Source: Sphaerolaimus hirsutus (lineage: Eukaryota; Nematoda; Chromadorea; Monhysterida; Sphaerolaimidae). Taken from it: a stretch of DNA of 64,000 bases. A program made the position numbers and the translations under genes. Shown here piece by piece: positions 8,232 to 61,165 of the stretch. Position 1 is the first letter of the stretch, and each line of letters starts with the position of its first letter. The stretch lies in the NCBI GenBank assembly GCA_964036195.1, contig OZ038455.1, positions 1,054,001 to 1,118,000 of the forward strand, in the 5' to 3' direction. The notes beneath the pieces were generated by a model. That model was not told the DNA's origin. It was given only the letters and a program-made list of their open reading frames with translations, and made no database searches.

Positions 8232-11200
8232 CTGAAAATATTGTTGTCAAATTTATTGTAGCTGGCCAATGTTGTCAGACTGCCGCCGCCCAAAGACAAG
8301 GAGAAAAATATCTGGAGGCACTCCCAGACTCTGTAAAGTGCCCTGTAAAATGTAAAATGTCATGCAATAGGTGCAAAGTAATGTAAAATGCCCAGAAAAA
8401 TGGCAAACGTCCGTTTGCCATTTTGCAGGGCATTTTCCATTACTTTCGACACTTTGCATGACATTTGACATTTTATTCAGGGTCTGGAAGTGACACCTGG
8501 TGCCGATTCCGCAAGTGGAAAAGTGAAGAGTTATAACTTAAGAGTTGAGTAAAATGATAAATGATAAGTTAAGAGTAAAGTTAAAAGTTAAGAGTTGGGT
8601 AAAATCATTTGTCGTTTCACGCAACTCTTAACTCTTAACTTTACTCATAACTTGTCATTTGTCAATTTACTCAACTCTTAAGTTTTAACTCTTAACTTTT
8701 CTACTTGCGGAACTGGCCCCTGGTTTGCGGCGGCCGCCCAAGTTTTCGACGAAATCAAATTTTCCCATTTTGGCGTCAGATAGAATAGAATTCCATCGAC
8801 AACCCCGTCCCCCAATGTAACCGCCCGAACCAGAAGAATTATTAGAATTACGTATGGAAATGTTGCTGTGAACCAGACTACCTGTGAAGGAAGATGTTTG
8901 ACATTTTCGCTGCACACACTTGTTGCCTAGTGGCGCTCCCAAACCCTGTAAAAAGCCCTGTAAGATGTCAAATGTCATGCAAAGTGTCAAAAATCATATC
9001 GACCATTAAAAGTCTGTTTATGAGTTTACTAATAAGTTTTTTTTCTGACAGTAGACTAGTGTGCACAGCATCAATGTGTGAAACCGAAAATTGGAGAAAT
9101 TGTGTTTGGGGGAATGCTGTCATTTTGTGACACATAGACCCCTTTGAAACCTTTTTTCTGTGATGACTCGGATAACATGAAAAAGTTCAATAATTCGAAA
9201 AAAGTTCCATATTCATAAGATAAAATGGCCAAGTATACATACCACCTAGGCGTATATGCATGCCAAATTGCAGATAAATCGTGCTTGTCATTCAAGAGTT
9301 ATAGACATTTGAAAAATTTTTGCCATTGTCGCTATCTGTGGGGCTCCGACAATGGCAAACAATGGAATATGGAACTTTTTACTTGAATTATTGAACTTTC
9401 TCAAGTTGTCAGCGTCGTCACAGAAAACGAGGTGTAAAAGTGGCCTTTACAGAAATTCCTGTTTACCTAGAGTGAGGGTATAAAGAATTAAGAAATTCAG
9501 AAATGGTGCAAGCCAAAATCGGAATTGTTATCAAAAACGCTAAAAAAATAAGTTTTGGAAAAATTCAAAAACACAAGTAGAAAATTCATTCAAAATTCTC
9601 AAGGCATTTCTCCAGACTAGGGTGTCAAAAAATTTTTTTACGGAAAACGGAAACGGAAACGAAAAAAAAATTTCAGGGGCCGGAAAACGGAACGGAAAAC
9701 GGAAAAAAATTTGCACTTGACAGAAAACGGAAACGGAAACGAAAAAATATTTTCAGTGGCCGGACAACGGAAAAAAGGGCCGGAAAAACGGAAACGGAAA
9801 AATGAAATTTACATGGAAACAGAAAAACTTGCTGAAATTTTGCCAGAAAACGGATAAAATTTGCTGAAATTTTGCTGGAAGTGGAAAAAATTTGCATAAA
9901 TTTTGCTGGAAACAGAAAAAAAAACATAATTGACAATCTGCATGAATGTTTACCAGTTTGGCTGGAACAGAAAACAGAAAGTTGAGCCATAAAAAGGTGA
10001 AATGACGCGCAAAAACCAAAAATTGAGGCAGAAAACAGAAAAAGGTGAAAAAACTGGAAATTGAGCCGGAAAACGGAAAAAAGGCGGGAAAACTGACAAT
10101 TTAGCTGGAAAACGGAAAAAAAGTGACCAGAAAACGGAAAAAAAGTTTCAGCAGACGGAAAACGGAACAGAAAACGGAAAAAAAATTGCCTGCAGCAAAC
10201 GGAAACGGAAAACAGAAAACGGAAATTTGACACCCTACTCCAGAAAAATATTACAAAAATCAGTTTTACTCACCTTTCCAGCAGACTTCACACTACGAAT
10301 AAGGCACAAGAACACCAGCACCCACGCAACAAACAGAGCCAGGACCAAATCCCACTTGGGTGCCCCCAAGCCCCCCAAACCATAGAACCTGCCCGCACCA
10401 AGCACATAGTCACTGAGCGGGATGGTATGCTTTTAGGTTCTAGTGTTGCACGGGTGTAGGGTGTAGGGTTGTAGGATTGCAGGGTTGTATAGTTGTAGGG
10501 TTGTAGGGTTGTAGGGTTGTAGGTTTGCAGCATGGCATGGTTGTAGGGTCATAGGGTTTCAGGGCTGTAGCTTGTAGGGTTCCTGGGCTGAAGATTGTAG
10601 GGCTTCAGGGCTGTAGATTGGAGGGCTGTAGGGTTGTTGGGTTTTAGGTTGTTGGGTATAGGGTTGTATGGGTGTAGGGCTGTAGGGTAGTGGGGTTGTA
10701 GAGCTTTGGGTCTGTAGGGTTGTAAGGTTGTAGGGCTGTAGGGCTGTAGGTTGTAGGGTAATGGGGTTAAATGACTGTAGGTTGTAGGGTAGTAGGGCTG
10801 CTACCACAAATCAAATATGTGATCTTACTCTGGGAACATGGATATGTTTTCCATTTAATGATTGTTTGTCAATCATCTTCCATTTTTATATGTTTCAACA
10901 TTGGATTCTGAATGTTTGAATCTTTTCAATGTGATTTGAAGCACTCAAATGTTGCGCAACTACCTTCCAGGCAACTTTCAACAGCACCAAAAATACGCAT
11001 GAAATTTCCAATCAAATAAATAATATTTCCCAGAAAAACTATCAGGCAAAATACCTCCCACCAACTTGAACTGCTGCGGGGCTGTCTGAGCAGTGAAACT
11101 AGTCTGGTTCCTGTTGTTCAGCTCCATAGCAAAATACTCATCATAAGTTTCATTGTTCACAGTGATGGGAAAGTAGTCGGGCTGGCGGCAGGCGCCCATG

Positions 11201-13276
11201 AAGTGGTAGGGATGCGTTGTGTTGCACTCCTTGGCTCCTTGCCAATCCTTGCACTCTGCAATTGGATGGGTAGGGAGTAGTTGTGTAGAATTTAGTCGCC
11301 AAGTGTCATGATACCCTTTGCATGTACTCCGCAGATTGAATGGTTTGATTTTTTTCTGACGGAGGATCATGAGAGTGCGCAACGGAGGAAACTGCCACAG
11401 TTCCAAAAGTTTGGAACGAAAGTGATTGGACGAGTGACAAGCAGACCTTTAAAGGACAAGTAGGTATTAATATTAAAAAAATAAAGTGAAATATGTATAA
11501 TTATTCACCCAGGTGCCGGTCCCGCAAGGGTATTTACAAGTTACTAGTTAAATCATAAGAGTTGAGTAAAATTACAAATGGTGAGTTAAGAGTAAAGTAA
11601 AAGTTTAAGAGAAGAGTAAAAATTTAAGAGTTGATTTAAATGACAAATGATTGGTTAAGAGATAAGAGTAAAGTTAAGAGTCAAGCAAGTGTATCCAAAT
11701 CTTATTTTTTCCATATCCAGATCTTATGTTTTTGTATCCAAATATTATTTTCTCTCATCTGATTTGGATACAAAAACATAAGATCTGGATATGAAAAATA
11801 AGATTTGGATACACTTGCCTGACTCTTAACTTTACTATTATCGCTTAACTAATCATTTGTCATTTAACTCAACTCTTAAATTTTCACTTTTCTCTTAAAC
11901 TTTTACTTTACTCTTAACTTGCCATTTGTAACTTTACTCAACTCTTATGTTGTAACTAGTAACTTGTACACTTGCGTAACTGGCCCCAGATCAACTGAAA
12001 TTCTAAAACCAATTTTACATAGCTAGTTGCCATCTCATATGTCAAAAAAAATCAGTGGCCTAAACCATCTCCAACCAATTTTATAAATAAATCAAATTCT
12101 GGCCTGAACAAAAATTTGTATGGATTTTCCATTTATATTTGCCAGAAAAAAACACTAAAAAATATTTTCAGCACCAAGGGTGGCCTGAGGGGGTGCCCCC
12201 TTGGGTATATATAGTAGATACTTGGGGGCACCCTCACACTAAGTGACAGCCTGATAGCTTGATTGTGTGATTTTTGAATGTAAGTAAGTGTAAGCAGTGT
12301 TTTAAATTCCTAACAGCAACTTTTTCTCACCAGTCTTTTCTCACTCAACTTGTCACTTTACATACCACTTAAATTGCCCACTTTCCCAGCACTCATCAAC
12401 TCAATCACTTAGCACTTAGCACTTATCACTTAGCCCCAGTGCCACTAACGGGGGGTGTTCCATTCATGGTTGCAGCCCTTCCAGGGGAGGTCGAATATGA
12501 TGGCCGAGTAGAGGTAGCGCAGCGCCCACGCCAGGATCATGATGTAGTAGAAGCCAGTGAACACTGAGATCACCACCATCGTTAAACCTATACCTGGGGG
12601 GGGGGGGGTTGGGGGGGTGATTTGATTTGCCCGACCAGGGGGCACACCCAGACCCTGTAAAATGCCCTGTAAAATGTCAAATGTCATGCAAAGTGTCTAA
12701 AGTCGTGGAAAATGCCCTGCAAAACGGCAACCGAGTTGAGTTGAGTGCCACCACAGTTGCCATTTTGCAGGGCATTTTCCATGACTTTTGACACTTTAAT
12801 ACAGTAAAATACCCACAAAATTTGGCAATCTCTTCAACCAATTGAATATACTAACCTGTGAATATTGGGCACATGCTCCTGTAGAGCAAATGGGGCGTTT
12901 TTGCAGCGAATTGCCCAATGGCCAGTTCCAGGTAAAACACCGGGAAACCGGCCAGGATCATCATTACAAACCAGGGATGAAATTAAATTTGCCCGATTTT
13001 TTGTCGGGCAGCCCGATTTATTGAATTTGTAATTTTGTGATGCGATGCTTTTTCAACATATCAAACTTTTATTTGTGAATTGTCAAAATCGGGTAACCTG
13101 ACAAAAAATGGGGCAAATTGAATCTGGCACCAGGGGATGAGGAAGGCGCCGCCGCCATTCTCGCCGCAGAGGTAGGGGAAGCGCCACACATTGCCCAGGC
13201 CAACTGCGCAGCCGATGCAGGACAGGATGAAGTCGATCTGCCCGCCCCACTGGTCCCGCTCCTGCTCGTTGCCCAT
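8232..13276 (-). CDS. SLC6-family sodium/chloride-dependent neurotransmitter transporter, partial (TM1 to about TM6)
   Basis: Exons in transcription order: 13130-13276 plus 12856-12975 (one exon split by an insertion), 12450-12593, 11062-11255, 10274-10429, 8720-8881, 8232-8311. The first has [40 protein letters not shown] and then [22 protein letters not shown]1-TM2 of the plasma-membrane LeuT-fold symporters that couple Na+ and Cl- to amino-acid or amine uptake. The 11062-11255 exon is the large extracellular loop 2 with glycosylation sites NTT, NET, NQT. Then come [40 protein letters not shown] and [20 protein letters not shown]. All joins have GT-AG sites and matching phases, except the donor at 8720, which an element has split. 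TM7-TM12 were not found to the left, and a 5' exon right of 13276 was not found. The substrate cannot be told. The insertion at 12976-13129 carries stops, so this allele may be non-functional. Confidence 0.88.
8312..8496 (-). mobile_element. Introner: fold-back MITE that forms a whole SLC6 intron
   Basis: On the minus strand the element reads CCAG|GTGTCACTTCC...GTGCCT CCAG|ATATT, where the outer joins are exon Gln|Ile. It is a 185-nt hairpin sequence with imperfect TIRs (plus-strand ends CTGGAGGCACTCCCAGAC and its inverse). Its target duplication is CTGG (8312-8315, 8497-8500). GT comes from the TIR and AG from the duplicated target. The same family occurs at 27546-27738, 39111-39301, 50662-50863 and 60943-61165. 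Confidence 0.8.
8501..8718. mobile_element. Fold-back MITE inserted at an SLC6 exon edge
   Basis: TIRs are TGCCGATTCCGCAAGT and GGCCAGTTCCGCAAGT (inverse of the right end); the interior is a palindrome of GAGTTAAGAGTTAA-like words. The target duplication is CCTGG (8496-8500, 8719-8723). It sits on the exon side of the introner donor, so the exon end CCAG is no longer followed by GT. A GT inside the TIR (CAA|GTAGAA on the minus strand, 15 nt in) would restore a donor in frame, adding five residues. Confidence 0.8.
8924..8992. mobile_element. Half of a GTGCCAG-type MITE
   Basis: CGCTCCCAAACCCTGTAAAA and TGTCAAATGTCATGCAAAGT match the left arm of the fold-back MITE family; no right arm follows. 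It lies 42 bp from the SLC6 exon at 8720-8881. Confidence 0.6.
9618..10237. mobile_element. hAT-type element, family A (TAGGGTGTCAAA TIR, AAACGG-filled)
   Basis: Ends are TAGGGTGTCAAA and TTTGACACCCTA, with an 8-bp duplication CTCCAGAC/CTCCAGAA (7 of 8 identical). Nearly the whole body is repeated ACGGAAAACGG/AAACGG words with short gaps, plus a conserved middle (GACAATCTGCATGA). No transposase is present, so it is non-autonomous. Other copies: 19515-20106, 28329-28989 (inverted) and 49833-49979. Confidence 0.9.
10445..10800. repeat. Minisatellite of GTTGTAGGG-like units
   Basis: About 350 bp of degenerate units such as GTTGTAGGGTTGTAGGG and GGGCTGTAGGG, inside the SLC6 intron between the exons at 11062-11255 and 10274-10429. 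The unit is not a standard telomere repeat. Confidence 0.85.
11513..11985. mobile_element. Fold-back MITE (GTGCCGGTCCCGCAAG) in an SLC6 intron
   Basis: TIRs are GTGCCGGTCCCGCAAG and the inverse of TTGCGTAACTGGCC, with duplication CCAG (11509-11512, 11986-11989). The arms extend about 200 bp inward as GAGTTAAGAGTAAAG-like words and AAATCTTATTTTTTCCATAT, giving a long hairpin. Read on the plus strand, the junctions are CCCAG|GT...CCAG|A, so they have splice-site form on the strand opposite to the host gene. Confidence 0.8.
12638..12800. mobile_element. GTGCCAG-family MITE, right end degraded
   Basis: Left end GGGCACACCCAGACCCTG follows CCAGG, then AAATGTCAAATGTCATGCAA and an inverted right arm (GGGCATTTTCCATGACTTTT) that stops before the terminal bases. 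It lies in the SLC6 intron 12594-12855, whose acceptor tract is a long C run (12597-12625 on the minus strand). Confidence 0.65.
12976..13129. mobile_element. TIR element inserted inside an SLC6 coding exon
   Basis: The ends are GATGAAATTAAATTTGCCC and GGGCAAATTGAATCTGGCA, with a duplication CCAGG (12971-12975, 13130-13134). Removing it and one CCAGG joins FLIPW directly to FVMMILAG, the expected TM1-TM2 sequence. Insert plus one duplication is 159 nt, a multiple of three, but it carries stops in the host frame. On the coding strand the target reads CCTGG, so no AG acceptor is formed. A much longer relative lies at 40241-40869. Confidence 0.85.
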
Positions 13277-14175: not shown

Positions 14176-15566
14176 ATGGCCAATGAACAGGGAGCCAATG
14201 AAGGCCCTGCATATCACACTCGCTCACAAATGAGTGATAGTGCCACAGAAAGCAGTGACACAAGGCAAAGTGCTGAGGCACCAGCAGCAAGAACTGCTGA
14301 GAGCAAAAATGACCAAGGCGATATGGTCAAGCACATGTGCACATTCATGCAGAGCATGATGAAACAACAAGAGAATATGGCTGATAAGCAAACAGATGCC
14401 ATGAATAAAATGATGGACAAACAAAATCAAATGATGGAAATATTGACATAAAAATGTCCATCAGGCACACTGGAACTGCACCAAGTGCTGTGCATGATTT
14501 GACCAGTGATGCAAGGTACACATCAGAGCAGCGGCGACTGTGGATGCCACTGTTAAATGACAAATTTTCCACCTTTGATGGTGAAGATCCACTGAAATTT
14601 GAATTGTGGATGGGCGATTTGAAGGCCCGGATCAAGCACACTGAAGTGCCAGATGAGTTTGCAGTGATTCATGTGCTCAAATGCCTGGGTGGCAGAGCAC
14701 TGCGCCAATTTGAGCACCTGTCACATGAGGACAGATTGACCTTTGAACAGGTCTGTGCATTTTTGGAGTCACAGTATGGTGACCATTTTTCTGCACAAAA
14801 TGAAATGAATAAGCTGATCACAACAAAGCAATCAGCAAAGGAACAAGTCAAGGACTTTGGCTTGTTGATTGAGAGTTTGGTGCGCAAAGCGATGCCAAAC
14901 ATTGTTCCAGCAGCTCTCAAAGTGCAATTGAAGCACTATTTTATGTCTGGCTTGCAGAATCAGACACTGCAAAATGCACTGTATGCATTGCCGACTTATG
15001 AGCTCATGACATTCAAGGAGCTGGTTGAAAATGCTGAAAGGCTGGAATTCGCAGAGAAGCGAGTGAAAGTGCATGCACCAAATACACAGAAATTTTGTGT
15101 CATGCATGGCACACACACACATTCAACTGAGGAATGTGACATTGCTGCCAGCCAGGCCAAGCGAATTGCAAATGAAAAGCTGGCAAGGCACAATGGCAAG
15201 CCTGGAACAAATGGCTTCAACAGGCCCAGGCGGTGGAATGCAAAATGCTTCCCACCTAAAATGCAGCAAACTGCTGCAAGTGCTGAAAACAGCCAAATGC
15301 ACCAGAAAAAGTGGTGCAATTTCCACAAGTCTGTCACACATGACACACAAGACTGCTGGATGTCCAAAAGGGACAATTTCAACAAGCACCCTGTGAAAAA
15401 GGAATGGACAAGGTCCAAGGTGCACAATATTGATTGTGACCAGGAGGGTGAACCTCCCAATGCTGTGAATCAGGTGCAGCATGTGGCACAGCCACAGAAA
15501 GTGCAAATGAAGCCAAAAACTGGCTCAAAAGTCAATCAGCCATGTGCCTATTTGAATGGCACATAA
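14176..15566 (+). pseudogene. gag: Gag of second Ty3 element, frame-disrupted
   Basis: Two open segments (14176-14451 and 14454-15566) lie in different frames. The first is a polar, Met-rich N-terminus (HMCTFMQSMMKQQENM). The second has the capsid-like FDGEDPLKFELWMGDLKARI and LKCLGGRALRQFEHL, then two zinc-finger-like motifs with His in the second position: CVMHGTHTHSTEEC and CNFHKSVTHDTQDC (both CX2HX4HX4C). It would form the particle shell and bind RNA. The frame change near 14450 could be a decay event. Confidence 0.8.
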
Positions 15567-18500: not shown

Positions 18501-18685
18501 TCTTTGTGAAAGATACGCCTGCCATGGGAAGTTGCAAAGCAAAATTGGACTTGCCCAATTCCAAAGAGGGTGAAATTGTTTCATTTCCATCACCCAAGGC
18601 TGCAACCATAACATTTAGTAATGGTAAAGTGTGTGTTGTCCCCATTAACATGCTGCAGCCCTGTTCTTTAGTTACAGGTACTTAG
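15567..18685 (+). pseudogene. pol: Pol of second Ty3 element (protease, RT, RNase H, integrase), with many stops
   Basis: A stop at 15564-15566 precedes the protease motif DSGADVT (about 15588-15608). RT runs over 16250-16930 with YLDD (about 16689-16700); stops or frame changes occur near 16394, 16416 and 16937. RNase H (TTDACADGLGAM) has a stop near 17317. Integrase has a His/Cys zinc-finger region (CKNCNTCK near 17800-17830), IVTDSG near 18080 and the Glu of ICERA near 18190, with further breaks near 18013 and 18155. The last segment (18125-18685) is the integrase C-terminus. Inactive. Confidence 0.85.
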
Positions 18686-19514: not shown

Positions 19515-20106
19515 TAGGGTGTCAAAAAAATTTTTTTACGGAAAACGGAAACGGAAACGGAAAAAAAATTTCAGCGGCTGGAAAATGGAACGGAAAACGG
19601 AAAAAAAATTGCACTTGGCGGAAAACGGAAACGGAAACGGAAAAAAAATTTATTAGGCCGGAAAACGGAAAAAGGGGCCGGAAAAACGGAAACGGAAAAA
19701 TGGAATTTGCATGGAAATGGAAAAATTTGCTGAAATTTTGCTAAAAAAACGATAAAATTCGCTGAAATTTTGCTGGAAACAGAATTTTTTTTACATAATT
19801 GACAATCTGCATGACTGTTTACCAGTTTGGCTGGAACAGAAAGCAGAAAGTTGAGCCAGAAAATGATGAAATGAGGCAGAAAGCAGAAAATTGAGGCGGA
19901 AAACGGAAAACAAAGCGGAAAAACTGAAAATTTAACCGGAAAACGGAAAATGAGCCGGAAAAACGGAAACGGAAAAAAAGGTTGCCGGAAAACGGAACGG
20001 AAAACGGAAAAAAAATTTCAGCGGCCGGAAAACGGAACGGAAAACGGAAAAAATTTGCCTGCGGAAAACGGAAACGGAAAACGGAAAACGGAAATTTGAC
20101 ACCCTA
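19515..20106. mobile_element. hAT-type element, family A
   Basis: Ends TAGGGTGTCAAA and TTTGACACCCTA, with a perfect 8-bp duplication AATGTGAT (19507-19514, 20107-20114). The body is ACGGAAAACGG words, as at 9618-10237. Confidence 0.92.
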
Positions 20107-27478: not shown

Positions 27479-30400
27479 ATGCTTTCCCGCCCCCTGGTTG
27501 CCGCGTGCATATGGCTTTTTTGGCTGTGCGCCAACTTGCAGCAGGTGCCAGTCCCGCACCCTGTAAAGTGTACGGTCAAGTGTCAAATGTCATGGAAAAT
27601 GTCATTCAAGTGTCTAGCAAATTGTCAAAACTTCAGTAATAATTCCAGTAAAAATAATAATTCCTTTTCTCGTTTTGATCGCCTTTTGCCATGACGTTTG
27701 ACACTCGACTTTACACTTTACAAGGTGCGTGACTGCCCCAGGGCTCCGCGGCAGAGTTGTCGGACTTTGATGAACAAATCGAGCAGCAGCTAGCAGTGCA
27801 GCAAAGACTCAGGGAGAACAGCGAACTTCTGCGGCAACTTAACGACGCTGGAGCAGGTGTGCAAAATATGATTGTGAGGCATAGTTGTTGAAAGTACTGA
27901 ACTTTTTTCGAAGTAAACCTAAAGTATTTTAGTTTTACTCACCCCTGAGTACAGAAAACGTAAAGTATTTTTTTCACTATTACAGTGCAACTAGACTTTG
28001 AAGAATTTTAAGTATCCAGATCCATTGAAGCCTTTAGGGTATCTAAACTACTTATCTGTCCGAAAAGTCCTCAAAAATCATAATACCGTATTTACTTGAA
28101 TAATTCCCCCCATTGAATAATTTCCCCCCTCGAGTTTTCAGATTTTTAAATCATCCCTAGAAAAAAACACTTAAAAATCGACTTTATTCTAGAAAAAATT
28201 TCGAAAATTTGGAAAACTCTTCGTTTCTTTAGTTTGAAAATCAAAATTTCCGTGCAATGATTGCAAGCAGCAGTCTGACGTGAAATGTCAAGTTGTTCCC
28301 TGACACTGTGACGTGAAATGATGATGACTAGGGTGTCAAATTTCCGTTTTCCGTTTTCCGTTTCCGTTTTCCGCAGGCAAATTTTTTCCGTTTTCCGTTC
28401 CGTTTTCCGGCTGCTGAAATTTTTTTTCCGTTTTCCGTTCCGTTTTCCGGCAACTTTTTTTTCCGTTTCCGTTTTTCCGGCTCATTTTCCGTTTTCCGGC
28501 TAAATTTTCAGTTTTTCCGCCTTTTTTCCGTTTTCCGCCTCAATTTCCAGTTTTTCCGCCTTTTTTCCATTTTCCGCCTCAATTTTCCATTTTTCCACCT
28601 CATTTTACCTTTTTGTGGCTCAACTTTCTGTTTTCTGATCAGCCAAACTGGTGAAAATTCATGCAGATTGTCAATGATGTAAAATTTTTTCCGTTTCCAG
28701 CAAAATTACTGCAAATTTTTTCCACTTCCAGCAAAATTTCAGCAAATTTTATCCAATTTCTGGCAAAATTTCAGCAAGTTTTTCTATTTCCGTGCAAATT
28801 TGATTTTTCCGTTTCCGTTTTTCCGGCCCCTTTTTCCGTTTTCCGGCCGCTGAAATTTTTTTTCCGTTTCCTTTTCAGTTTTCCGCCAAGTGCAAATTTT
28901 TTTCCGTTTTCCGTTCCGTTTTCTGGCCTCTGAAAAAATTTTTCCGTTTCCGTTTCCGTTTTCCGTCAAAAAATTGTTTTGACACCCTAATGATGACGTG
29001 AAATGATAAGAATTGAATTTTTCAATTCGCTCTAGTTGTGGCTGATAACACTCAGTATTGGACACGATTAAGGTATTGATTCATATATTATCCTTAGAAA
29101 ATTGTAGACCCGTAGCATGATCCACACTCGTGTAATAAATTTCACGACGACATTTCACGTCATCATTTCACGTCGAATCGACGCTGAGCTCTAATTCCCG
29201 CTTAACAGCTTGGAAGGCCGTAAAACATTAAAGTGTGTTCAATATTCACCAGAAAAATACCAAAAATGCTATTATTTGATGCAAGTACCAAAAAAAAAAA
29301 TTTGAAAAGTAATAAAAAAGATTAAAAAATTTGAAAACTAAATTCGAAAAATTGAAAATGATTTTCACAAAAAAGTCTAAATTCCAAAGGTCTATTCAGA
29401 AGGACTTAAAAATTCTTCATAAGAAAAACATTAGAAATTGCGAAAAAGAGAGAGTTGGCCAGCGGCCAAGAAATGACGAAATCGTCATTTCCGGGCCAAA
29501 ATCAAAGTAAAACAGGCGCCAGGGAGCCTACGTTCTCATTCCATGATTAGCATTCGAAAAATAACCCGTGATTTATATTTTCAAAAATCACAATAAATAT
29601 AAATAACCCGTGATTTATATATATTTATATTTTTTCCAAATTCTGAGTGATATATTTATATATATTTTTTAAATTTGAAAAAAAATCACTGAGAAAATCA
29701 CTCATACTTGATACATTGTGGTGCAATGATTGCACTTTATGGCTAAAACATGTAATCTGTGCAAGAGAAATTAGTGAGTGCTTTTCTCCAGAAAATCTCT
29801 CTGTTCATGTACAGCATTATTGGGTTAAAATTGTATTTGAAGCAGGTAAATATTGTGCCTACACACACTAGTTTTCACTCTGACTTTTTTGAAAACTGAA
29901 ATGGCCAAAAATGGTGACATGTTTCCATCAAGTTTTCCACTACAAAGCTATTTATATACAGGGTAGCGCACGTCAGGCGCACAGTTTCAATCTGCTCTCT
30001 ACAAGTCAATTTTAAATGAAAACTGTTCAAATTTGATATGGCAGTAGATAAATGCACCCCATTTAGTATGTTAAGAGCACACATTCATATAGCAAGATTT
30101 TTATGTTAGAACGTGTAGCACATTGAATGGGCATTTTCCTTTGCAGTTATGTGAAGGAGAAGGTTACAGTCCACAGTTGCCCAAAATGATGGACATTGAG
30201 CAGTTGAAGCATGTGATGGTCCAGCAGTTCAATGAAATTTTGTGTAGCATGTGTGTGAATGTTGTGGGTGAACTGCTGTCAGATATTTTACGTTTTTACT
30301 AATTTTACTAGTTTCTGTTTTTACCACAAAAATACGCCACTCGTCGAATTTGCCGCAACTGAGAATTGTAAATTCCGGTCCTTTTGCGCTTTTAATTGCG

Positions 30401-33363
30401 TGCGTAATTAGATAAATGTTTGTTTTTATGGTACAGGGATTTTACACGCAAATCAGGAACAGCGCCAGTACCCCTTGGGGTCCTGACAAGTTCCCGAGGA
30501 CGGACACGGCAACTTACCAATCCCTTTCGTAACTGCAGCCCGCGGTTTACTTCGAGTAACTGTTAATAAGCCGTAAATAAAATAAAGCCGTAATTAATAA
30601 AATTCAAATTAAAATTCAAGCAGTTAGTATGCTTCAGGGGGACCAAGTTGGATTCACGGGAACTTTATTTAGCAATATAATCAGAGTCAATTTCACAATA
30701 GCTCAAGTGAGTCGTATAGCCTCTAGTGGGTGAAAAAAATGTAAAATCAGCGCGTTTTATAATCACCAAAAGTCTACCATAATAGAAATGAATACTAAAT
30801 CTGAGACACAACAATTAACCGTAATTAGAGGATTACAAGGCAAAATTAATGATCACTGTAAAAACAATTAACATAGCATACAAGGCACGGGAAAATTAAT
30901 TGAATGCGGGAAAGTAATAAAAAGGATGCAAACGTGAAGTAACTGTAATTAAAAATGACGCAATTAAAATACAAATTATCTCGGAGGTGAGTGTCATAAA
31001 CTGGGTTTTTTATTCAGAGTTTACGGTACAATTTAGAGCAGGTGGTGTGACACGTGTTATCAACCTGCGCCCCTTTAGGTGAAAAATATTTTATAGCGCG
31101 CCCGACCAAGGCCACAGAAAGAACGCTCATTTGCGGGGGTTTGTTCAAGGTTATTGCATTGCCGGGTAAGGGTTGGAACTTCGGGCATGAACACACGCTA
31201 CAAGACACTAGCACTTGCGAGTTCACCAATCACCCTGGGTGATGGGAGTAATTAATTGGCACTGCTGTGCTCTTCACTGTAGACTGTGCTCTGCATGTGT
31301 CTTGCAGTCGCATGTCGACAATAATTGCTGTTTGCCACTTTTCCACCCATTACCTAGTCCTAAGTAAAAATGCACTCGGTCGGGGAATTTTCTGAATGTT
31401 ATCTATCGGGGCGCCTATGTGTTTAACAGAGTCGACACCTTTTAGCTTAACAGGAAACTTTAAAGCTTTTCTAACCCATTCCCAGACACTGCACCCTTTT
31501 GACCAAATATGTAAACTTGATAGAAACCTAAAAATTATAACATTCGAAAGTACATATCAGAAAATGCATTTGAAAAATGAAAGTAATCACTTAATTAACT
31601 TAAAATGCAGGTAACTTAATTAGTTTAATTAATTAAAACAGGGAATGACACAATTAAAATCATACGGGAAGTAGTTACGTAATTAACGGAAAAGAAAAAA
31701 TACTTAATAAAATCATGGCCGCAGTAGTGTCCATTCGGGCGTACCGTCCTGGGGCTGCGGCTTCGTTGGCGGATTTGCAGTGCACAGCGAACCGCACGTT
31801 CACTGTGACTTCCCTGTGCACCGCGGGCCGTCATTCGGTCACACACGGTCGTCCTCGAGTCGTTGGAGTGTCTGCACAAAATTGTCGTTACGTTTTTATG
31901 CATGATTGGCTAGCCATATTTCCACCTACACTGCTTAATCATTTGGGTATTGTCGTATTGCGATAATGGCGGTGGTTCTGTGGAGTGACGTTCTTTCATA
32001 TGGTTTGATGTATGTGAAAAGTTAGCGATATGAATGTGTGCTCTTAACATACTAAATGGGGTACATTTATCTACTGATATACCAAATTTCAGCACTTTTC
32101 ATTAAAAATTGACGTGTTAGGAGCAGATTGAAACTGTGCACCTGACGTGTGCCACCCGGTATGTTCAGTTTTCACAAATGGCATGAATTTTGGTGGGGTG
32201 GTGTTGGCAAATCACTAGTTTGATCACAACTCAAACTCAAATGATGACAAATGGTGACATCACCATCAATTAGTTTTCATTTTGTATGTGACAAAAATGT
32301 AAACTGTTTTAGTAACTTTTTATTAATGTCATCCTGCTATGAATTCTATGGTTATGTTTTAGGTATAAAGCATCTCTCTATCTTATAACATACTTTTCTG
32401 AAATAGAACATGACTTAGAATCAAAAAATGCCAATTTGATGTGATAAAAGTTTATCTACAGTGATTGAAAGCTCAGTTTACCATTTTTGAAAACTGATGA
32501 TGCTTTGTGACTTGCACCAATGTCAGCTGTTTTCAAATATGGGGAAAACTGTCACCATGGTGTCACCAGTGCCACTAGCGTCATCACAATATTGCCAAAA
32601 TGTAGTCATGTGCCCAAAAATGAGTTTTCACAGCACATCACCATTGAAAAAGTGCTGGGCATGAGCACCTATTTAGTCAAACGTCTATTGCCACAACCAG
32701 GCGCTATAGGTTGCAGTGCAAAATATTTTTGAAGTTTTCATTGAGGTTGAACTGAAGGTTGCATTTTTCTGTGATATTTGCTTGATGTTTTCACTTGTAA
32801 AATATTGTATAAATGAATACTGATTGTGGAATGATTATATATGGACTGTGGTATTTTAGAGTACATTTTTTGTGCTTGCAAATGGTAAATAAAGCCCAGA
32901 ATATTTCTTGAAATTGAAATAAAGCGCAAGTGATTTTTTGAGATTTTTTTTGAGCTTAGAGTTATTTTTTCAGTAATTTAATTATATTTTCTGGAGACCT
33001 AGAGTGATTTATATATATTTATATTTTTTCCAATATTGGAGTGATATATTTATATATATTTTCCAAAAAATTGGTGATTTTTTCGAAATGCTATCCATGA
33101 TTAGTAGCCTGCTAGTATCAGGGACATAAAACACTCAAAATAATAACTTGTAACTTTTTTTTACATCCGCAGCCAGGAAAGCAGTTAGAGTATACTCATT
33201 ATATAAGGGAGCGCCCACAGTGAGATTGCCCGATCACGAAAAGCTAACAACTACACCGGCGCCCATTGGAAACAAATTCGAAAAAATCGACCATTTTCTA
33301 AAAGAGATTAAGGATGAAATGGAAACATTGCGTGAAAAGTTGGCTAAGTGCCAATTGAACTGA
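27479..33363 (+). CDS. Small secreted coiled-coil protein, three exons, 123 residues
   Basis: Exons: 27479-27544, 27742-27856, 33173-33363. Phases match (0, then 1) and all borders are GT-AG. Exon 1 is a signal peptide (MLSRPLVAACIWLFWLCANL). Exon 2 is amphipathic and charged (DEQIEQQLAVQQRLRENSEL, LLRQLNDAGA). Exon 3 has a basic stretch (ARKAVRVYSLYKGAPTVRLP), a TTTPAP linker and a C-terminal heptad-like helix (FEKIDHFLKEIKDEMETLRE) with one Cys four residues from the TGA stop at 33361. Not recognised as a known family; the layout suggests a secreted helical oligomer, possibly joined through that Cys. Intron 1 is exactly a fold-back MITE. Intron 2 (5.3 kb) holds at least four nested transposons. 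Choice of start: the ATG directly begins the hydrophobic leader. Confidence 0.7.
27546..27738. mobile_element. Introner: fold-back MITE forming intron 1 of the secreted coiled-coil gene
   Basis: The intron 27545-27741 reads CAG|GTGCCAGTCCCGCACC...GTGACTGCCCCAG|GGC. The element has TIRs of about 50 bp (GTGCCAGTCCCGCACCCTG against GGGGCAGTCACGCACCTTG) and duplicates CAGG (27542-27545, 27739-27742). The whole intron is the element plus target bases: the TIR's first T completes GT, and the second target copy supplies AG. Confidence 0.88.
28258..29210. repeat. TGACGTGAAATG-rich fold-back element, partial, interrupted by a hAT
   Basis: It matches the right part of the complete palindrome at 50946-51475 (TGACACTGTGACGTGAAATG, GATCCACACTCGTGTAAT). 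The hAT at 28329-28989 splits it at GATGATGAC, and the other copy shows that site empty. Confidence 0.75.
28329..28989. mobile_element. hAT-type element, family A (inverted copy)
   Basis: Ends TAGGGTGTCAAA and TTGACACCCTA, with a perfect 8-bp duplication ATGATGAC (28321-28328, 28990-28997). The body is CCGTTTTCCGTTTCCG words. The empty site at 51250-51290 confirms the duplication. Confidence 0.93.
29959..32159. mobile_element. TA-target element with long TIRs (CAGGGTAGCGCACGTCAGG)
   Basis: TIRs of about 150-200 bp (CACGTCAGGCGCACAGTTTC; AAATGGGGTACATTTATCTA on the inverted side) are flanked by TA. The inside contains the second copy of the dispersed repeat (30900-31960). Confidence 0.75.
30900..31960 (+). 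repeat. Dispersed repeat, copy 2
   Basis: Homologous to 7160-8190 (see there); nested in the mariner-like element. Confidence 0.6.
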
Positions 33364-35403: not shown

Positions 35404-36620
35404 CCGCAAATCTTCGAATAAGACCCCCCTTGAATAAATCCCACCTGTTTGCGAGGTGAGGGAAAAATAACTCCCCCCTTGAATAACTCCCCCCTCTTGA
35501 ATAACGCCCCCCCCCCCTCAGGATGAAAACGATACAATACAAAAATACAAAAGAATATTAGCATAGAGCAGCGACAGCAGATACATTTTGTGTATGCAAT
35601 TGCAGTGTATACACATCTTTTTATTGTCGTTCGACAGTTAAATACCTTAATTACATGAGTTTACAGCAGAGTTGTACAAATACTGGTATTTTTGGAAAAC
35701 GTAAACGTAAACGTAAATACCTTTTCAAATTTTGGAGTATAAATACTCAAACGTAAGGTATTTTTAAAATACCTGGGAATACGTAAAATAAAACGTAAAC
35801 ATAAAAATTAATATTAAGTGCATCCACTATCACTGAATATAAAAAGAACATTTTTACAACATTATGTATGTTCCTATGATCTTCATTATCATCATCTGTT
35901 TACCTACATACCTGTATTTTACCTATATTTTATATAGAATTATGGGATCGGGATATTGAATTGGGATAGGATCGAAACCGGTTGAGATTTTGCGTCGTTG
36001 TCAACTAGTGCGTGTAGGGTCATATGGTGCCAATTCCTTAAGTGGAGAACAGCAAGTTGAATGGCATATGAAAAGTATAAAAAAACAGTAAATTTATAAG
36101 TGGCAAATGAAATGGCAAATTAAAGGACACATGGCAGGTCACAAGTAGACACTAGTTTTTGACTTTTGACTTAATTTCACTTCTCACTCATAAATTTACA
36201 TTCCTCTCAAATTTTTACTTATAATTTTTAAATTGTTCCAGTTCTCCACTTAAGCATGATTAACTCATCATAATACACTACATTTGTCAAATAATACAGT
36301 TCCGTTAACTTATTTTTTACGTTTTCTCTGGTACCCGAGTAATTGTGCCAGGAAAACGTAACAAAACGTAACGGTATTTTTGGAAAGCGTAAACGTAAAC
36401 GTAAGTATAAATACCCGAATAACCGGTATTTCGGGTAAACGTAAATACGTTTTTGCAACTCTGGTTTACAGACTGCACCCATACAATGAATTAAGTCCAA
36501 GTTATATTTACAAGGAAACAAAAACCCCCCCTTCAAATAACTCCCCCCTTGAATAACTCTCCCCTTAAAAACGTCTGAGGAAAAAATAACTCCCCTGGGG
36601 TCTTATTCGAGGATTTAGGG
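35404..36620. mobile_element. TA-target element (CCGCAAATCTTCGAATAAGA) with nested hAT
   Basis: Ends CCGCAAATCTTCGAATAAGA and the inverse of TCTTATTCGAGGATTTAGGG, flanked by TA. It lies 9 bp beyond the inferred stop codon of the MAM gene. A hAT sits inside at 35667-36463. Confidence 0.85.
35667..36463. mobile_element. hAT-type element, family E
   Basis: Ends CAGAGTTGTACAAATACTGG and the inverse of ACGTTTTTGCAACTCTG, with a perfect 8-bp duplication GTTTACAG (35659-35666, 36464-36471). ACGTAAAC words fill both ends. A fold-back MITE (TGGTGCCAATTCCTTAAGTG, about 36025-36255) is nested inside. Confidence 0.93.
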
Positions 36621-36629
36621 TAACTCGAA

Positions 36630-39600
36630 TCACTGTGGAGGGCAGACCCTTTCACTGGCATCGTTAGGGTCGGTTCCATCTGGCCGCAGCAGCTGGATGT
36701 CGTCTATGCCAAAGGCACCCTGGTTTTTGCCCTCGTTTCGCAGAACCAGGTAAATCTAGAATGACACAGGCAGTTTCAACTGGGAATGTATACTGATTGG
36801 ACTGAAAAGGTGATGTTAAAGTGCCGTGGTATTGGTGCCTGGTGCCTGCCTAGCACCAAAGCAAAAAGCACCATTCACAGCAACAAATACGCATGTGGAT
36901 GGTCAAGCCTATTCCGCATGTAAGCCCATTCCGCATGTAGACCCATTATAGACACATTATACCCACAAGGGTAAGAATGGGGGGTGGGGGACCCCACCCC
37001 AAACTGCCCAGTTATCTATCTATCCCTGGCGCAAACTTTTTTGGCTAAATTCCCCTGAACACCCCCCCCCCCAATTGCCTAGCTATCTAGCTATCCGGAG
37101 TGCTTTTGAGCAATTTTCACACAAAATCACTATAATTTTCATACTTCTTATAGATTTTCACTTTCAAAATAACTAGATCATGTGTTTTATTACCTACTTT
37201 CAGCATACCAGGTAGGTATAAATATTTTCCGGGTCGACATGCGGGATGGGTTTACATGCAGAATAGTGCAGTGAAGCGCCCATGTGGATGCGCAGTGAAG
37301 TGTCATGAAGTGTCTCCACTATTCTGAATGCACCTGAAGCATGCAGTGAAGCTAGGTGAAGCACGTGGAAGATACTTCACCCATAATTTCGTGGTTTCGT
37401 CAGTTCACGCACATCCAGCCTGCTTCCCGACCCATTTTCGCTGCGATGGCTCAGACATTTGGTACATTGTTGCCATGGCGCCATTGGCACTGAGTGCTGG
37501 ATGTCAGAAAAGCACCATGGCGCTCTTGACATTTGACTAGTGATGGAAAAAGCGCCAGACTTTTGGCGCCAAGCGCCAAAAGCGCCATGGCGCTTTTCCG
37601 ACCCCCAGCGCCAAGCGCCAATGGCGCCAGAGCAAAATAGCGCCAAGCGCCAAAAGCGCCATGGCGCTTTTCTGAACCTCAGCGCCAAGCGACAATGGCG
37701 CCAGAGAGTGATGGCGCCAAGCGCCAATAGCGCCAGCACCAAAAACCTTTTATTCTGCATTTTGTTTGTAAATAGAATAATCAATTCGTAATTGTGACAT
37801 ACCGCTGATGTCGCAGTAGTTGATTTAACTTTTGCCATTAAAGTTCAGTCAACCACTACATCATTAAAATCCCAAGGTATACACCTATTTTTCAGCCAAA
37901 CAGCCGTACGATGATAGGTCCTAAATATTGTATCCCATTTAGTCATGTTTAATACCAGTTATGGGTATGTAAATACTTATTCTTTACATGATACTTTACG
38001 AAAATTCCTGGCGAAATAATAAACCACCCGCTCGAAATACCCCCATCAAAATTTGCACTCGGAAAAAATAAACCCCCTGGTGGTATATCGAGGAAAGACG
38101 GTATATTCATTTGCCCCGAATATTACCTAATCAATATTTAGGTAATATAAATGTCCCTTTACACCCTTATATTTAACAATATTTATACAGTTAATCTCAA
38201 AATTTATCAAATGGCTTGTCCATTTTCACTGAATCATAAGAATTTTATAATCATGCTTGGAGCTTTTTTGGCGCTATTTAAAATGCCGGCGTCAGGCGCC
38301 AATAGCGCCACCAGAAAATGGCGCCAAGCGCCAAAAGCGCCATGGCGCTTTCTCAGATCCCAGCGCCAAGCGCCAATGGCGCCAGAGCGTTTTAGCGCCA
38401 AGCGTCAAAAGCGCCATGGCGCTTTTTGCTTTGGCGCTAGCGCCAGGCGCCAGCGCCATGGCGCTTTTCCATCACTACATTTGACACTACTGTATTTCTC
38501 TGTGTAAGGAACCCGGGTGCTACACAAAATTGAGACACCGTCCAGCAACCTTTTTTAAAACTTGTAAATATAACACCTGGGTGTTAGGTCAGGGGGTGTT
38601 ATACATGGAAAAACCTTCAAAGTCAGTGGAAAGAGAGCGGTTTTCTTTTTATGATACACGTCCCTACATATTAAAGCTTCTTTTTCTTTGGTTCCCAGTG
38701 TGCAGCAATTCAATGGGAAAATGCATGCCACAGAATTACAACAATAGCATGTGCTATGCACAATATTTAAGCAATTCAAATTGGGTGATATTTTTGAAAC
38801 CTAGCATATACCACCCTGGGGGTGCTATGCAGCTGTGTAACACCCCGGGTGTTGTGCACAGGGGGGGGGGGGGGGTCCTTTACACAGAGAAATATGGTAA
38901 TGTCCTGGCGTTTTTTACATCACTAGACTGAATTCTATACAAAAGAATAGAATGTTGCACCCATTCACTATTAGTAAAACTGGTGATGGAAAAGGGAGTG
39001 CTAGCAGGATAATCACAGCAACAAAAAGGGAAAATATATTTATGGATGGACGGTCATGAATTTTTTGAAATAACATTAATCACAAATTGACCCCAAAAAG
39101 TGTCACCATGGGGCAGTCCCAAGCCCTGGAAAGTGTGAAGTAAAGTGTCAAATGTAAAGTCAAATGCAAAGTAAAGCATCAATCAAAACAAAAAAGGAAA
39201 GATTCTATTACTGAAATTTGCATTTGCAATTGACAGTTTACTTTGCATTTGACTTTACATTTGACACTTTATTTCACACTTTACAGGGTTTGGGACTGCC
39301 CCCATGTCAGAATTGTCACCAACCTTCTGCGTTCCCTGAGGAATGAGAATGGAATGTGTGAGCCACTGTTGTTCACTGGGATCTGCTTGTCTGTCTGTTT
39401 CAAATGGACAATTGTCGGGACCGTCCAAGCAGATCTGTGGACAGGTATTTTAAAGGTACATTTTTGTGACATTGCAAATACACATCATAATATGTAAAAA
39501 TGGCATGAAAATATGCTAATGCCAGACATTCTGGCAGATGGGCTTATTTAAAAAATATTTTAAGGAAAAGGAAATAAAAAGGAAAAACATTTTTAGTTGG

Positions 39601-42600
39601 TGATTTCTTGAGTTCACTGAGAATTGAACAAAATATTCAGGTCCACCCAGATTGAAAAACAACACTGTTTATAAGAAAATATGGTCAAGCATGCTGCAGG
39701 ACAATAATAATGAACCAAAATCAAACAGTATTGCAGTATCAGAAAACATTCTCACAGCAAAGCATGTGTCCAAAACTAAATACTTATGTCTCTTTCGATA
39801 ACACGCGCGCAGGATACTTATGCACACACTTTCACCAAAAAAAATATTTACAAGGATAAAGGAGGAGTCACTACAAGCAACATATGTTTTAGTCTCCTGA
39901 AAAGTTCTTCCTTTTTGGAACAATTCGTATTTTATGAATGCTGACCTCATAATTATGGAGTATTTCATTCAAAAGAATGCCTAGTGTGTGATTCACATAT
40001 AGTCGGCAGACATGATACTCTACAAATAGATATGATTCATGTCTTCGGCTGGCAGACAGCCAACCGAAAACTTATGAACCGATTGCCCACCGCACTTCAT
40101 CCCGACTCGGGACCGGTTCAGTCAGCCGCAGTTCAGTGCGGACTGCGGTTATGACGTCATGATGGAGTGTTACCTTCAGAAAAAAGTAGGCTATAATGTC
40201 ACCCGAGTATAGCACCATATTTGCTCGAAATACCCCCAGGGGCCAGATTTAATTCTCCCTACAGATTTGTAGGGTAGGGTGTACGCCCGACAGATTTTTT
40301 AAAGTTGAGCCGCATCGACGCACATGCACCGCGAGCAAGGGGGTTCGTAAAATATACGAAAACATCCCTTAAGGTCGCCGATATTGCAATATGACGTATA
40401 TCGCTTCGATTTTGGCACGTAAATCATGTTTTCGTCATTTCTTGGCCGTCAGCCAATTCGTTTTTTATTTTATTTTGTCGGGCGGGTTATGCATAAGTCG
40501 CGCTTTTGTGTAGTCAAGGTGGTCACTTTTTTAGTGTTCACTGTCTGCAACCGAAACCATGAGGGCAGCGACAAGAAAGGAATGCATGCACGAGCGTACA
40601 AAAGCGCGACTTATGCGAGTAACCCGCCCGACAAAATAAAATAAAAAAACGAATTGGCAGACGGCCAAGAAATGCCGAAATCGTGATTTCCGGGCCAAAA
40701 TCGAAGCAATACATGTCATATTGCAATATCGGCGACCTTAAGAGATAGTTTCGTGTATTTTACGAACCGCCTTGCTCTTGCTGCACGTGCGTCGATGCGG
40801 CTGAACTTAAAAAAATCTATCGGGCGTACGCCCTACCCTACAAATCTGTAGGGAGAATTAAATCTGGCACCAGGGGGTTTATTTTTTCAGAGTGAGAATT
40901 TTGATGGAGTTAAACGAGGGGGGCCATCTCGAGGGCGGGAGCGATTATTTCGCCAGAAATTTTTTGAAATCCCAGTACTAAATTGTTGTCTGAAACGTAC
41001 GCAGACGTCGAAAAATGCAACAAAAATTGCCATTTATAAGACTCAAGTGACTTGTATAAGTGTGTAGACGTATAAACACTGTTCTCACATAACAGAGTCA
41101 TCGTTTTTTTTAACGTGTGTTCTGCATTGCCCAGATGACAAACCGCAGCCTTTGTCATTTACGTTCTCTATACAATAAATTGGGGGGGGGGGGTATTTCG
41201 AGGGGGGGTTTATAAGTTCATAGTGTCCATTTTAAGGGGGGTATTTCAAGGGGGGGGGGGGGTTTCCTCGCTCTAATAGCTTTCTCACCTGCCCAAACAT
41301 GTCCCAAGTAGCTTCATAATGTTTGAATCTCAACACTCTGTCTTCGCTGAAGGTGAGTTCTTTTGATTCCATCGCAGCCACATCTCCGGGAAACAAATAC
41401 GTCGCCAGGTATGCATCATTCAGGTTGCCTTCAGCTGCGAACGTGGGGGTATTTTTAGAGCTAATTTCACATTGTGGCCACACAAGCTACCGTATTACCT
41501 CGAATTAATTATTATATGGGGGTTAATTATTTCACCAGCAAATTTTGAGGGGGGGGGGGGGGTTAATTCGAGGGGGGTTTATTCGAGGGAGGGGTTATTC
41601 TAGGGGGCTCTTTTATTTCGCCAGAAATTTTACGGAATTCCACATACTGCAACGTAGAAGAATGCACTAATGATAGAAAGTGTTTATGGTGAAACTGAAG
41701 TGTATATGGACATATAAATATAACTGTATATGTGCATGAACCCTGTCCTCAGGGGTCTGGTAGGGTGGGGGGGGGGGGTCGGGGGGGTTACCCCCCCCCC
41801 CAAACGCTCCAGCTATCTATCTATCCCGAAGGCCGCTCAGCTATCTATCTATCCCGAGGTGAAATTTTTGGCTACTACCCCTGAACCCCCCCCCCCAAAT
41901 CACCAGCTATCTATCTATCATGGAGCGATTGTTGAGAAATTTACCATAATTTTCACTCAAAATCACTACTTTTCATACCTATTTATATATTTTCACTGTC
42001 AAAATCATCAATGTGTATGTCTTATCTAGCATAGAAAAAATCTCTGGGAGATTTATATTTAAAAAATCTCAGAAAATCTCAGAAAATATAAGATTTTCTG
42101 AGATTTATATTTTTTCCATGATTTTCCAGAGAGATTTAATTATATTTTCTCATGATTGAGAAAGTCTCTCGAGAAAATCTCTCTATATTTGCCCATTTTC
42201 ACCTTCAAATTCACTAGTTCATGTGCTTTTTGCCAGTTTTCATCTATTTTTAGCTATTTATATTTTTGCTCATATACCAATTTTTGGCTATTTTCCCTCC
42301 ATTTGTAGTTTTTCCTTCCTTTTTCTGTTCTATGGCATGAAAGAGCCAATAAAAAAGTTATCTGAAATACATTTTCTGTACTCAAGTACTTTCAGGAAGT
42401 ATACATAAAAGAGAGTACTGGTATGTTTTCAGAGGAAATATAGATGTATTTACTTAGTACTCAAGTATTTGTATTTTTTAGTAAACGTAAATATGTTTAA
42501 CCCCTGGACCATACTGAACCCTTGCAGTCCCATGAAAACCCAGTGCTCAAGTATGGGGCTGTATTTAAGCGCTGAGTCTGAATTGGCGCTGGGTGTGCTA

Positions 42601-48600: not shown

Positions 48601-51600
48601 CGGGCCTGGAATTGGATCGGAAACTTAAAATGCGATTTACTCAAAATCACATTTTGTGGACTTGTCGACTTTTAGAATTAGACGCCTCAACTGTATATAC
48701 ACATAAACCCTTCCCTAACATCACTCAATCATCAGTTTTAACGTGTGTTCTGACTTGTACAGATCACAAACTGCGGTATTTGTCATGTACGTTCACGATA
48801 CACTCAATTTGAGGGGGGGTATTTCGAGGGGGGGGGTTATTATTTCCTCAGCCGAAATTTAGGGGGGGGGGTATTTCGAGGGGGGGGTCAATTCAAGGGG
48901 GGGGATAATTCGAGGTAATACGGTATGTGAAAAATGGGGTGTCCATAAATTTCCATTCGGTCAGAGCAAAACTGTTTTTGGGAGGAAAATGGACTTGTTG
49001 ACTTTTTGCACTAGAGAACATTTTTGTTCCCATCTAATTTGCGCCTGCCTTATGGGAAACTTATGGACTTGTTGACTTTTAGAAATCGGTGTCCATGATG
49101 GACTTATCACATTTCTAGCGTTTTTTTCCTATAAAAAATGGCGGCGGAAGGTGGACTTGTCGACTTTTAGCCCAAAACTAAGTGGACTTGTCGACTTATT
49201 GCCCAAAATTTTTGCATTTTTCCCAAAAAATGTCAAATTTGGCACTTTGCCATATGGGCATGTGAAGTCCAAATATTGATGGAAAATGATAAAAAATTTG
49301 CTGAAGTAGCCCCAGATGATGTTTCCGGGCCTAACTCCAAATTTTCAATTTTGTGACTTGTCGACTTTTAGAAGTAGACACCTCAAATGTTGACACACAT
49401 CAAACAATTGTCCCGGTGGCAAAACTGCGGTCACTGGGCCCGGCTCTGACTGCTTTGGCATCTTAACACAATGCACCAGCGGGTTCTCCATTCTTGACGG
49501 GGTGAATGTGTCCTGGATACACACTTGCAGCTCTGCATTCTCTGTTGACCAGTAGCTGCAGAGTTGGTGAATCCCATCATATACACAATACACATGCAGA
49601 AAGTGTTGTCACTTTGGTACTGAACGTCATCTACCCATTACTCATCTTTACCCACTACTCACCTATGGTCATGTATTGCAGCAGTGCAGAATTGAGGATT
49701 AGTGGCAGTGGGTTTAGATGAATGAAGGGATTACCACAGATAATGCAGTGGGCAGCAAACAGAGGCATAGACCAACCTTTTTATATGGCTTTGTGTTTGC
49801 CATCCACACCTAGTGAACAAGCAGGTGTTTAGTAGGGTGTCAAAAAAATTGTTCATGGAAAATGGAAAGGTAAAAAAATTTCATCTGGCGGAAAATGGAA
49901 TGGTAAAAAAATTTCATCTGGCGGAAAATGGAATGGTAAAAAAATTTCATCTGGCACAAAATGGAAAGTTGACAGCCTAGTGTGCAGTGTGTGATACACC
50001 AGCACTGCCACTTCAAAATATGTTGGCATGCTCTTATGTGGTTAATTTTGGTGCACTAGTGTACACTCACAATGCATGCCAATGTATTGTAAATTGATGG
50101 TGCAGGTGTGCTACACACCTGCTCATCCACTAGGTACAGGCAGCATACACAAAGACATACATAGTGCCAGTCTATCCCTCTGTGTTTGCCACCCAGTGCA
50201 TTATCTCTACTAATACCCTAATTCATCTAAACCTGCTGCCAGTGGCAGCCTGCCACTAACCCCCCATTGGTGAGTAGCTGGTATAGATGAGTAGTGGGTC
50301 TAGATGAATAGCGTGTTTACATGAGTACGACACCCCACCCATGAAAAGCACCATATGACACTTTCAGATACCCCAATATTACAAAGCAACTACGTATTTA
50401 GAGCACATTGACATTGTGCAGTATTTCCTCATGACTTATCATTGTAGGGCAGGTGGGGTCACAAAAACTTGACAAGTTGTCAGCTCGCCCCCCCCAAACT
50501 AACTTCAACTTGACATGCACAGGGTCATCAGTGCATCTGACAGTGCAGGACACAAATCTCGCAGTCCAGATCTCATCCTTTGGGGCCTCCCCGCCCACAG
50601 CCAGAAGGAATGGGGGGCTATCTGGTTGCAATAAGGTGTAATGGTTAGAAGTCAGGGCTGGGGCCAGTCCAAGCACCTGTAAAATGCCCTGGGAAATGTT
50701 TTATGCCATGCAAAGTGTCTCAAGCCTGTAAAGTGTAAAACTTTTTACAGGGTATTTTAAATGACTTTTGACACTTTGAATGACATTTCCAGAGCATTTT
50801 ACTTGACTTTAGACACTTCACATTTGAAATTTCCAGGGCATTTTACAGGGTCTACAAGTACACCTGGCTAGGACAAATGCTATACAAGGTTATATACAAC
50901 AAGAGACAGTGGTCAAGTCAATTGATAAGTTTTACCACTAAGGCCGGAATTAGAGCTCAGCGTTGATTCGACGTGAAATGATGACGTGAAATGACGTCGT
51001 GAAATTAATTACACGAGTGTGGATCATGCTACGGGTCTACAATTTTCTAAGGATAATATATGAATCATACCTTAATCGTGTCCAATACTGAGTGTTATCA
51101 GCCACAACTAGAGCGAATTGAAAAATTCAATTTTTATCAATTCACGTCATCATCATTTCACGTCACAGTGTCAGGGAACAACTTGACATTTCACGTCAGA
51201 CTGCTGCTTGCAATAGTATGACGTGAAATGTCAAGTTGTTCCCTGACACTGTGACGTGAAATGATGATGACGTGAAATGATAAAAATTGAATTTTTCAAT
51301 TCGCTCTAGTTGTGGCTGATAACACTCAGTATTGGACACGATTAAGGTATTGATTCATATATTATCCTTAGAAATTTGTAGACCCGTAGCATGATCCACA
51401 CTCGTGTAATTAATTTCACGACAACATTTCACGTCATCATTTCACGTCGAATCGACGCTGAGCTCTAATTCTCGCTTAATGACCAGTTTTATACAGTTTT
51501 TGGAGCCAAGAAAACTTAAGTCGGTAAAACGTTCATTAATAAATAAAAGTGTCACTATTTAAACAGCATGAGTTTACAACTCCCGTATCTTAGAACTTTT

Positions 51601-60942: not shown

Positions 60943-61165
60943 TGCCAGTCCCAAGCCCTGTAAAGTGTAAAGTAAAGTGTCAAATGTAAAGTCAAATGCA
61001 AAGTAAAGTGTCAAATGTAAAGTCAAATGCAAAGTAATCTGTCAATTGTCATGCAAAGTTCAGTAAAAAATCTTTTCTTTTTTGTTTTGATTGACACTTT
61101 ACTTTGCATTTAACTTTACACTTGACACTTTACTTTACATTTTACAGGGCTTGGGACTATGCCCC
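60943..61165. mobile_element. GTGCCAG-family fold-back MITE
   Basis: Ends TGCCAGTCCCAAGCCCTG and the inverse of CAGGGCTTGGGACTATGCCC, with duplication CTGG (60939-60942, 61166-61169). The arms repeat AAAGTGTCAAATGTAAAG. Confidence 0.9.

Follow-up and report, generated by a model that had tools for sequence, protein, structure and literature searches.

Introners of Micromonas and Aureococcus, the subject of work by Huff et al. in 2016, are reportedly MITE-like, with splice sites shared between the element and its target duplication, and are said to differ from the family reported here in their hosts and target lengths. Introners derived from DNA transposons are known but rare in animals, introners in only two animal groups being reported in the survey of Gozashti et al. 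2022 (PMC9860276; here and below, in those sections of the paper that were drawn on). The same survey already describes introners that have terminal inverted repeats and 4-bp duplications and whose splice sites derive partly from the duplication, the closest published cases being those of Symbiodinium (Fig. 2B) and Florenciella (Fig. 2E). The original prediction, in which a fold-back family making introns in this genome was regarded as new, was therefore overstated on this point.

The family that we analysed has much in common with the introners of that survey: both are non-autonomous DNA elements inserted in coding sequence with a 4-bp duplication (in our family, at those window elements that have two defined ends), where one splice site, here a predicted one, is carried by the element and the other comes from the duplication, so that the mRNA length would stay unchanged. 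Compared by description, it differs from the published families in its animal host, in having arms of tens of bases, and in a target that is mostly CAG or CCAG. Because the copied target is mostly of this type, the 3' AG arrives with the duplication. The family also resembles the introner elements of Amoebophrya (PMC7789003, in the sections drawn on), with their inverted-repeat hairpins, direct repeats of 3-5 nt over the exon borders and many non-canonical ends; that host, however, is a dinoflagellate in which more than 60% of introns are non-canonical, and those sections describe no family-specific inverted repeat. In the open-licence literature, queried otherwise than by the motif, no paper on such an element family in this host was found.

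Our window, the whole stretch of 64,000 nucleotides from Sphaerolaimus hirsutus, contains several members of a family that is very probably an introner, that is, a non-autonomous fold-back DNA transposon (MITE) with CAG/CCAG-like targets that itself becomes the intron. The element has one terminus starting (G)TGCCAG, and the opposite target copy contributes CAG. Once the stretch between these two is taken out, what lies on either side reads as open coding sequence at many copies, and in conserved genes it joins into contiguous homologous protein. In the mechanism that we propose, a transposase encoded elsewhere would mobilise the element, the transcript would form a long hairpin in which the two ends meet, and G, element and CAG would then be cut out by the ordinary spliceosome, which would restore the reading frame that existed before the insertion.

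The focal copy lies within a predicted orphan gene, with the following features:

27479..27544, plus strand: predicted exon 1 of the orphan gene, with an ATG and a hydrophobic, signal-like start; ends in phase 0
27542..27545, plus strand: left target copy CAGG, whose last G is intron base 1
27545..27741, plus strand: predicted intron with GT-AG borders, 197 nt long and in phase 0, consisting of G, element and CAG
27546..27738, plus strand: focal fold-back element, 193 bp; sense 5' end (G)TGCCAGTCCC, 3' end GACTGCCC
27739..27742, plus strand: right target copy CAGG, whose CAG is the predicted 3' splice site
27742..27856, plus strand: predicted exon 2 of the orphan gene; ends in phase 1
33173..33363, plus strand: predicted last exon of the orphan gene, with the stop at 33361-33363; fits phase 1

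What had been claimed about the form of this predicted intron was borne out: it consists of one fold-back element and a CAGG duplication, the element is a single mobile fold-back unit with its target copies, and the intron is in phase. Its GT (target G followed by the T of the element) and its AG (from the second CAGG copy) can be read directly in the sequence. The length of the intron is no multiple of 3, and unspliced reading meets an in-frame stop after 49 codons. The arms of the element (27549-27609 and 27675-27735) are 61 nt long and 82% complementary, and the computed RNA fold of the hairpin reaches -72.4 kcal/mol (z = -10.6), a stability equalled by 0/200 dinucleotide shuffles.

The gene itself was originally presented as one for a secreted protein. 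The three exon phases do agree, but there was no homologue among 10 word-sharing candidates and the codon signal is unconvincing, the scores being matched by 1.7%, 15% and 47% of stop-free windows for exons 1, 2 and 3, respectively. The open frame across the focal empty site (38 codons) is not unusual, because the 95th percentile of the null is 87 codons. Open frames across empty sites were rejected as evidence in general, as random places score equally well. The focal gene is hence weak evidence for the introner idea, the case first made for it being one of form alone; we infer that the focal copy is spliced like its siblings.

A blastn search with the focal element against the window retrieved relatives near 60938, 39106, 12636, 56565, 8937, 8319 and 50742. 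The following elements, listed without strand, are those referred to below outside the interrupted coding sequence of an SLC6 gene:

11513..11985: element C, a relative of element A (see below), with CCAG copies on both sides, inside an SLC6 intron
39111..39302: relative of the focal element, with CATG copies
40240..40869: 630-bp palindrome sharing the end motif GGGCCAG / TGCCAG with the family, with CCAG copies
50662..50863: relative of the focal element, with CTGG copies; may act as the acceptor of a minus-strand gene that is itself unverified
60943..61165: relative of the focal element, with CTGG copies

All nine window elements with two defined ends (9/9) are flanked by a perfect 4-bp copy, which is CCAG/CTGG in 7, CAGG in 1 and CATG in 1. 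Given a window share of 0.7% for CCAG plus CTGG, P is about 3e-14, a value to be read in the light of the ends having been picked with the copies in view; random pairs share some 4-mer in 19% of cases with the slack used. Four more elements with the same end type (56564, ~12636, ~8937 and 12226-12462) have no matching copies or only one end. The motif GCCAG stands at the ends of at least four interiors, namely those of the focal element, of A and C, of the SLC6 element at 12975 and of the palindrome at 40240. The family has the terminal inverted repeats of a MITE, and words from the elements gave 0 matches in viral and bacterial/archaeal contigs.

Other features of the window include two LTR-type retrotransposon coding regions on the plus strand, one at 1104-3719 with RNase H and integrase parts recognised by Pfam, the other at 14409-18685 with a PNMA-like gag and part of an aspartyl protease. 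A near-perfect palindrome of 525 bp (50947-51471, 96%) has ends unlike those of the introner family, and islands of degenerate TTTTCCG / CGGAAAA repeats occur in intronic and intergenic positions (9641-10250, 19539-20094 and 28347-28965).

The elements at 39111, 50662 and 60943 had originally been placed outside splice borders. This still holds for 39111 and 60943, which are intergenic or deep intronic, but is unsafe for 50662, whose end is, on the minus strand, the sole nearby acceptor in phase with a predicted upstream exon. Because neither Pfam nor PDB recognised anything in the predicted gene, we left 50662 uncounted as an intron case. The open pieces of this region (36600-52051, minus strand) carry cysteine patterns recalling a MAM-like extracellular protein; assignment of the gene at ~52-36 kb to the MAM domain was dropped, with no support in Pfam or PDB. 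Two further relatives, at 8316-8719 and 12975-13129, were missing from the original list, and both interrupt the homology-backed SLC6 gene.

The weight of the introner idea falls on the rest of the chromosome-scale genome (348 Mb), a search of which produced 86 match rows and 1392 first-look candidates, of which the best 40 were scored and all read as loci. The query contained 4-5 flank bases, and the reading of borders sought GT..AG only. Among the best 40 of the 1392 candidates in this genome-wide look at copies, suggested with the original prediction, GT-to-AG splicing at the element ends leaves 15 or more open codons on each side in 33/40, and an open GT-AG solution is absent in 7/40 (L007, L008, L011, L015, L024, L033 and L041). 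Open flanks alone mean little here.

Twelve spliced flanks were written out, and 10 of them (leaving out L019 and L029) were sent to Pfam, which matched seven and returned nothing for L004, L036 and L042. The match crosses the junction for Sec7 in L002 (3.9e-41, with a gapless alignment to ARFGEF1 also running across), PAP2 in L005 (5e-12), a C2H2 zinc finger in L012 and a tyrosine kinase in L018 (5e-14, with no PDB contiguity at E <= 1e-14). In the guanylate cyclase region of L034, a crossing HNOBA match falls below the cut-off and a gapless alignment from PDB, with the natriuretic peptide receptor, runs across the junction. In L017 (WD40-type, with many WD40 proteins in the PDB search; not counted as crossing) and in L023 (zf-CCHC, zinc knuckles), the matches that are confident fall next to the junction. 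These seven introns measure 188-207 nt, and 7/7 run into an in-frame stop if unspliced. Predicted introns of similar sequence occur in unrelated genes and extend to both predicted borders, with homology across the junction at 5 loci and beside it at 2. This supports the claim that family members fit exactly, from GT to AG, between the coding exons of conserved genes unrelated to one another.

These loci also bear on the idea that ordinary MITEs were inserted into pre-existing introns, near or at splice sites. Members of the same family are indeed intergenic or deep intronic (39111, 60943, C at 11513, and the SLC6 introns near 8937 and 12636), and a longer predicted intron would have the element at 50662 at its 3' end; but at L002, L005, L012, L018 and L034 the exons are separated by the element and its flank copy and nothing else, which makes this idea very unlikely. 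Spread of RNA-borne introners by reverse splicing, a route suggested for fungi, would agree with the sense orientation and intact splice signals of the genic copies. We nevertheless consider it highly improbable, as the long inverted repeats, the flank duplications and the copies away from splice borders all point to DNA transposition.

Removal of L028, L030 and L039 as duplicates left 37 distinct copies, in which the three bases just ahead of the GTGCC end read CAG in 23 and CTG in 7, with AG at both ends in 21; CAG copies are favoured in these counts because the query included flank bases. Perfect 4-mers at the ends, with slack, were found genome-wide in 18/40 loci, as compared to 25% for shuffled ends, and with only this number perfect, either the duplications are eroded or the assigned ends are loose. 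In L026 and L036 (both C4), the element follows AAGCAG and precedes similar predicted coding sequence, as if duplicated together with the intron.

The minus strand of the window carries an SLC6 gene encoding a glycine/proline-type transporter. Pfam SNF matches its exons singly, and the joined exons at 2.3e-100; a profile of 120 homologues places six exons, in order, within the window, and further exons follow in the right order downstream of it (strongest 4.7e-11). The exons read contain no stop codons, and the best relative is a protein 48% identical. The parts adjoining the elements are as follows:

13131..13252, minus strand: SLC6 exon (known part)
12975..13129, minus strand: fold-back element of another interior family, 155 bp, inside SLC6 coding sequence at FLIPW/FVMM
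12856..12971, minus strand: SLC6 exon
8720..8881, minus strand: SLC6 exon
8501..8719, minus strand: fold-back element A, of a second interior family, lying within the target copy that separates the exon from B
8316..8496, minus strand: fold-back element B, of the focal interior family, with CTGG copies (CCAG sense)
8232..8311, minus strand: SLC6 exon

Two introns of this gene (IFT/GIG and AGK/VVWF) have ordinary GT-AG ends with no element at the border, and we take the positions of these canonical introns to be shared with vertebrates. Our literature search found no published account of conserved SLC6 intron positions, a study of the human dopamine transporter gene being unhelpful in the sections drawn on. 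The interruptions at FLIPW/FVMM and AANQ/IFFS consist of elements alone. The first element is flanked by CCAG at 12971-12974 and 13130-13133 (CTGG on the sense strand). The second, candidate intron 8719-8312, contains A and B, and B would provide a CAG acceptor ahead of IFFSLS. Across 8312-8723, A and B, whose interiors differ, are arranged head to tail and have three CCAG copies, one of them shared by both, the second of these two elements having gone into the target copy of the first.

At both of these cut points, an inserted residue is present in 0/120 listed homologues. This contiguity of the protein, like that at L002 and L034, is no guide to where the homologues have their introns. At FLIPW/FVMM (I1), 0 GT-AG or GC-AG exits keep both frames open. 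At AANQ/IFFS (I6) there are 8 GT-AG exits, each adding at least 2 residues where 120/120 homologues have none, and the exact product requires GG-AG. A third cut lies just outside the window (I9; L022, about 4030-3848, minus strand), where a family-1 element interrupts TM8; its single GT-AG solution removes conserved TM8 sequence, and GT-AT in the same register leaves four residues between P and W, as in 52/120 homologues, these 52 being the ones readable by pattern. None of the three cuts, then, has a GT-AG solution that leaves conserved sequence unchanged.

This missing exit, together with the in-frame stops in all tested introns, is what would be expected if the insertions were disabling, so that the struck coding copies were dead genes or alleles with unspliced elements. 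Such decay is very improbable given that both flanks remain open and homologous at the copies in conserved genes, and that the SLC6 gene has ordered downstream exons and is stop-free in every exon read. If the SLC6 interruptions are instead removed as introns, one register fits them and the focal site alike, namely G, the element or elements, and three bases of the second flank copy. It gives GT-AG at the focal site, and would give GT-TG at FLIPW/FVMM (intron 13130-12972), GT-AT at I9 and GG-AG at I6.

We tentatively raise the possibility, which we regard as rather doubtful, that these introns are defined by the splicing register and not by GT-AG: the element would give the 5' site (GTGCCA/GGGCCA) and the flank copy the last three bases, with a CAG copy yielding a canonical intron, and introns with CTG and CAT copies still removed as GT-TG and GT-AT, aided by the hairpin. 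Non-canonical introns are known in other animals, since the spliceosome accepts 3' AT/AC in Fritillaria (PMC13326754, in the sections drawn on) and GG donors in the copepod Eurytemora affinis (PMC5714493), although the latter paper describes no transposon at the copepod introns; the SLC6 GT-TG, GT-AT and GG-AG set beside them here are candidate introns read from sequence. Programmed elimination, in which the elements are precisely removed at the DNA level and GT-AG is unnecessary, would also explain cuts without GT-AG, as copy-to-copy removal restores the SLC6 protein. We find it most unlikely, because GT and AG stand in register at the copies in five conserved genes and elimination needs neither.

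If the register reading holds, these introns would be born non-canonical and later drift to AG. In L005, L018 and L023 the 5' copy is CTG or CGG and yet the 3' copy is CAG; such drift is only suggestive, because the search demanded AG at the 3' end.

Judged from its sequence, the family is a real introner-type DNA transposon; the kind is known, and there may be a non-canonical twist. How new introns arise has been asked for a long time, and few reports of active intron makers come from animals. A chromosome-scale animal genome holding a family with many divergent copies, of which some are flush between conserved exons and others are not, makes intron birth directly testable with RNA. If the SLC6 cuts are spliced, introns would start outside the GT-AG rule.
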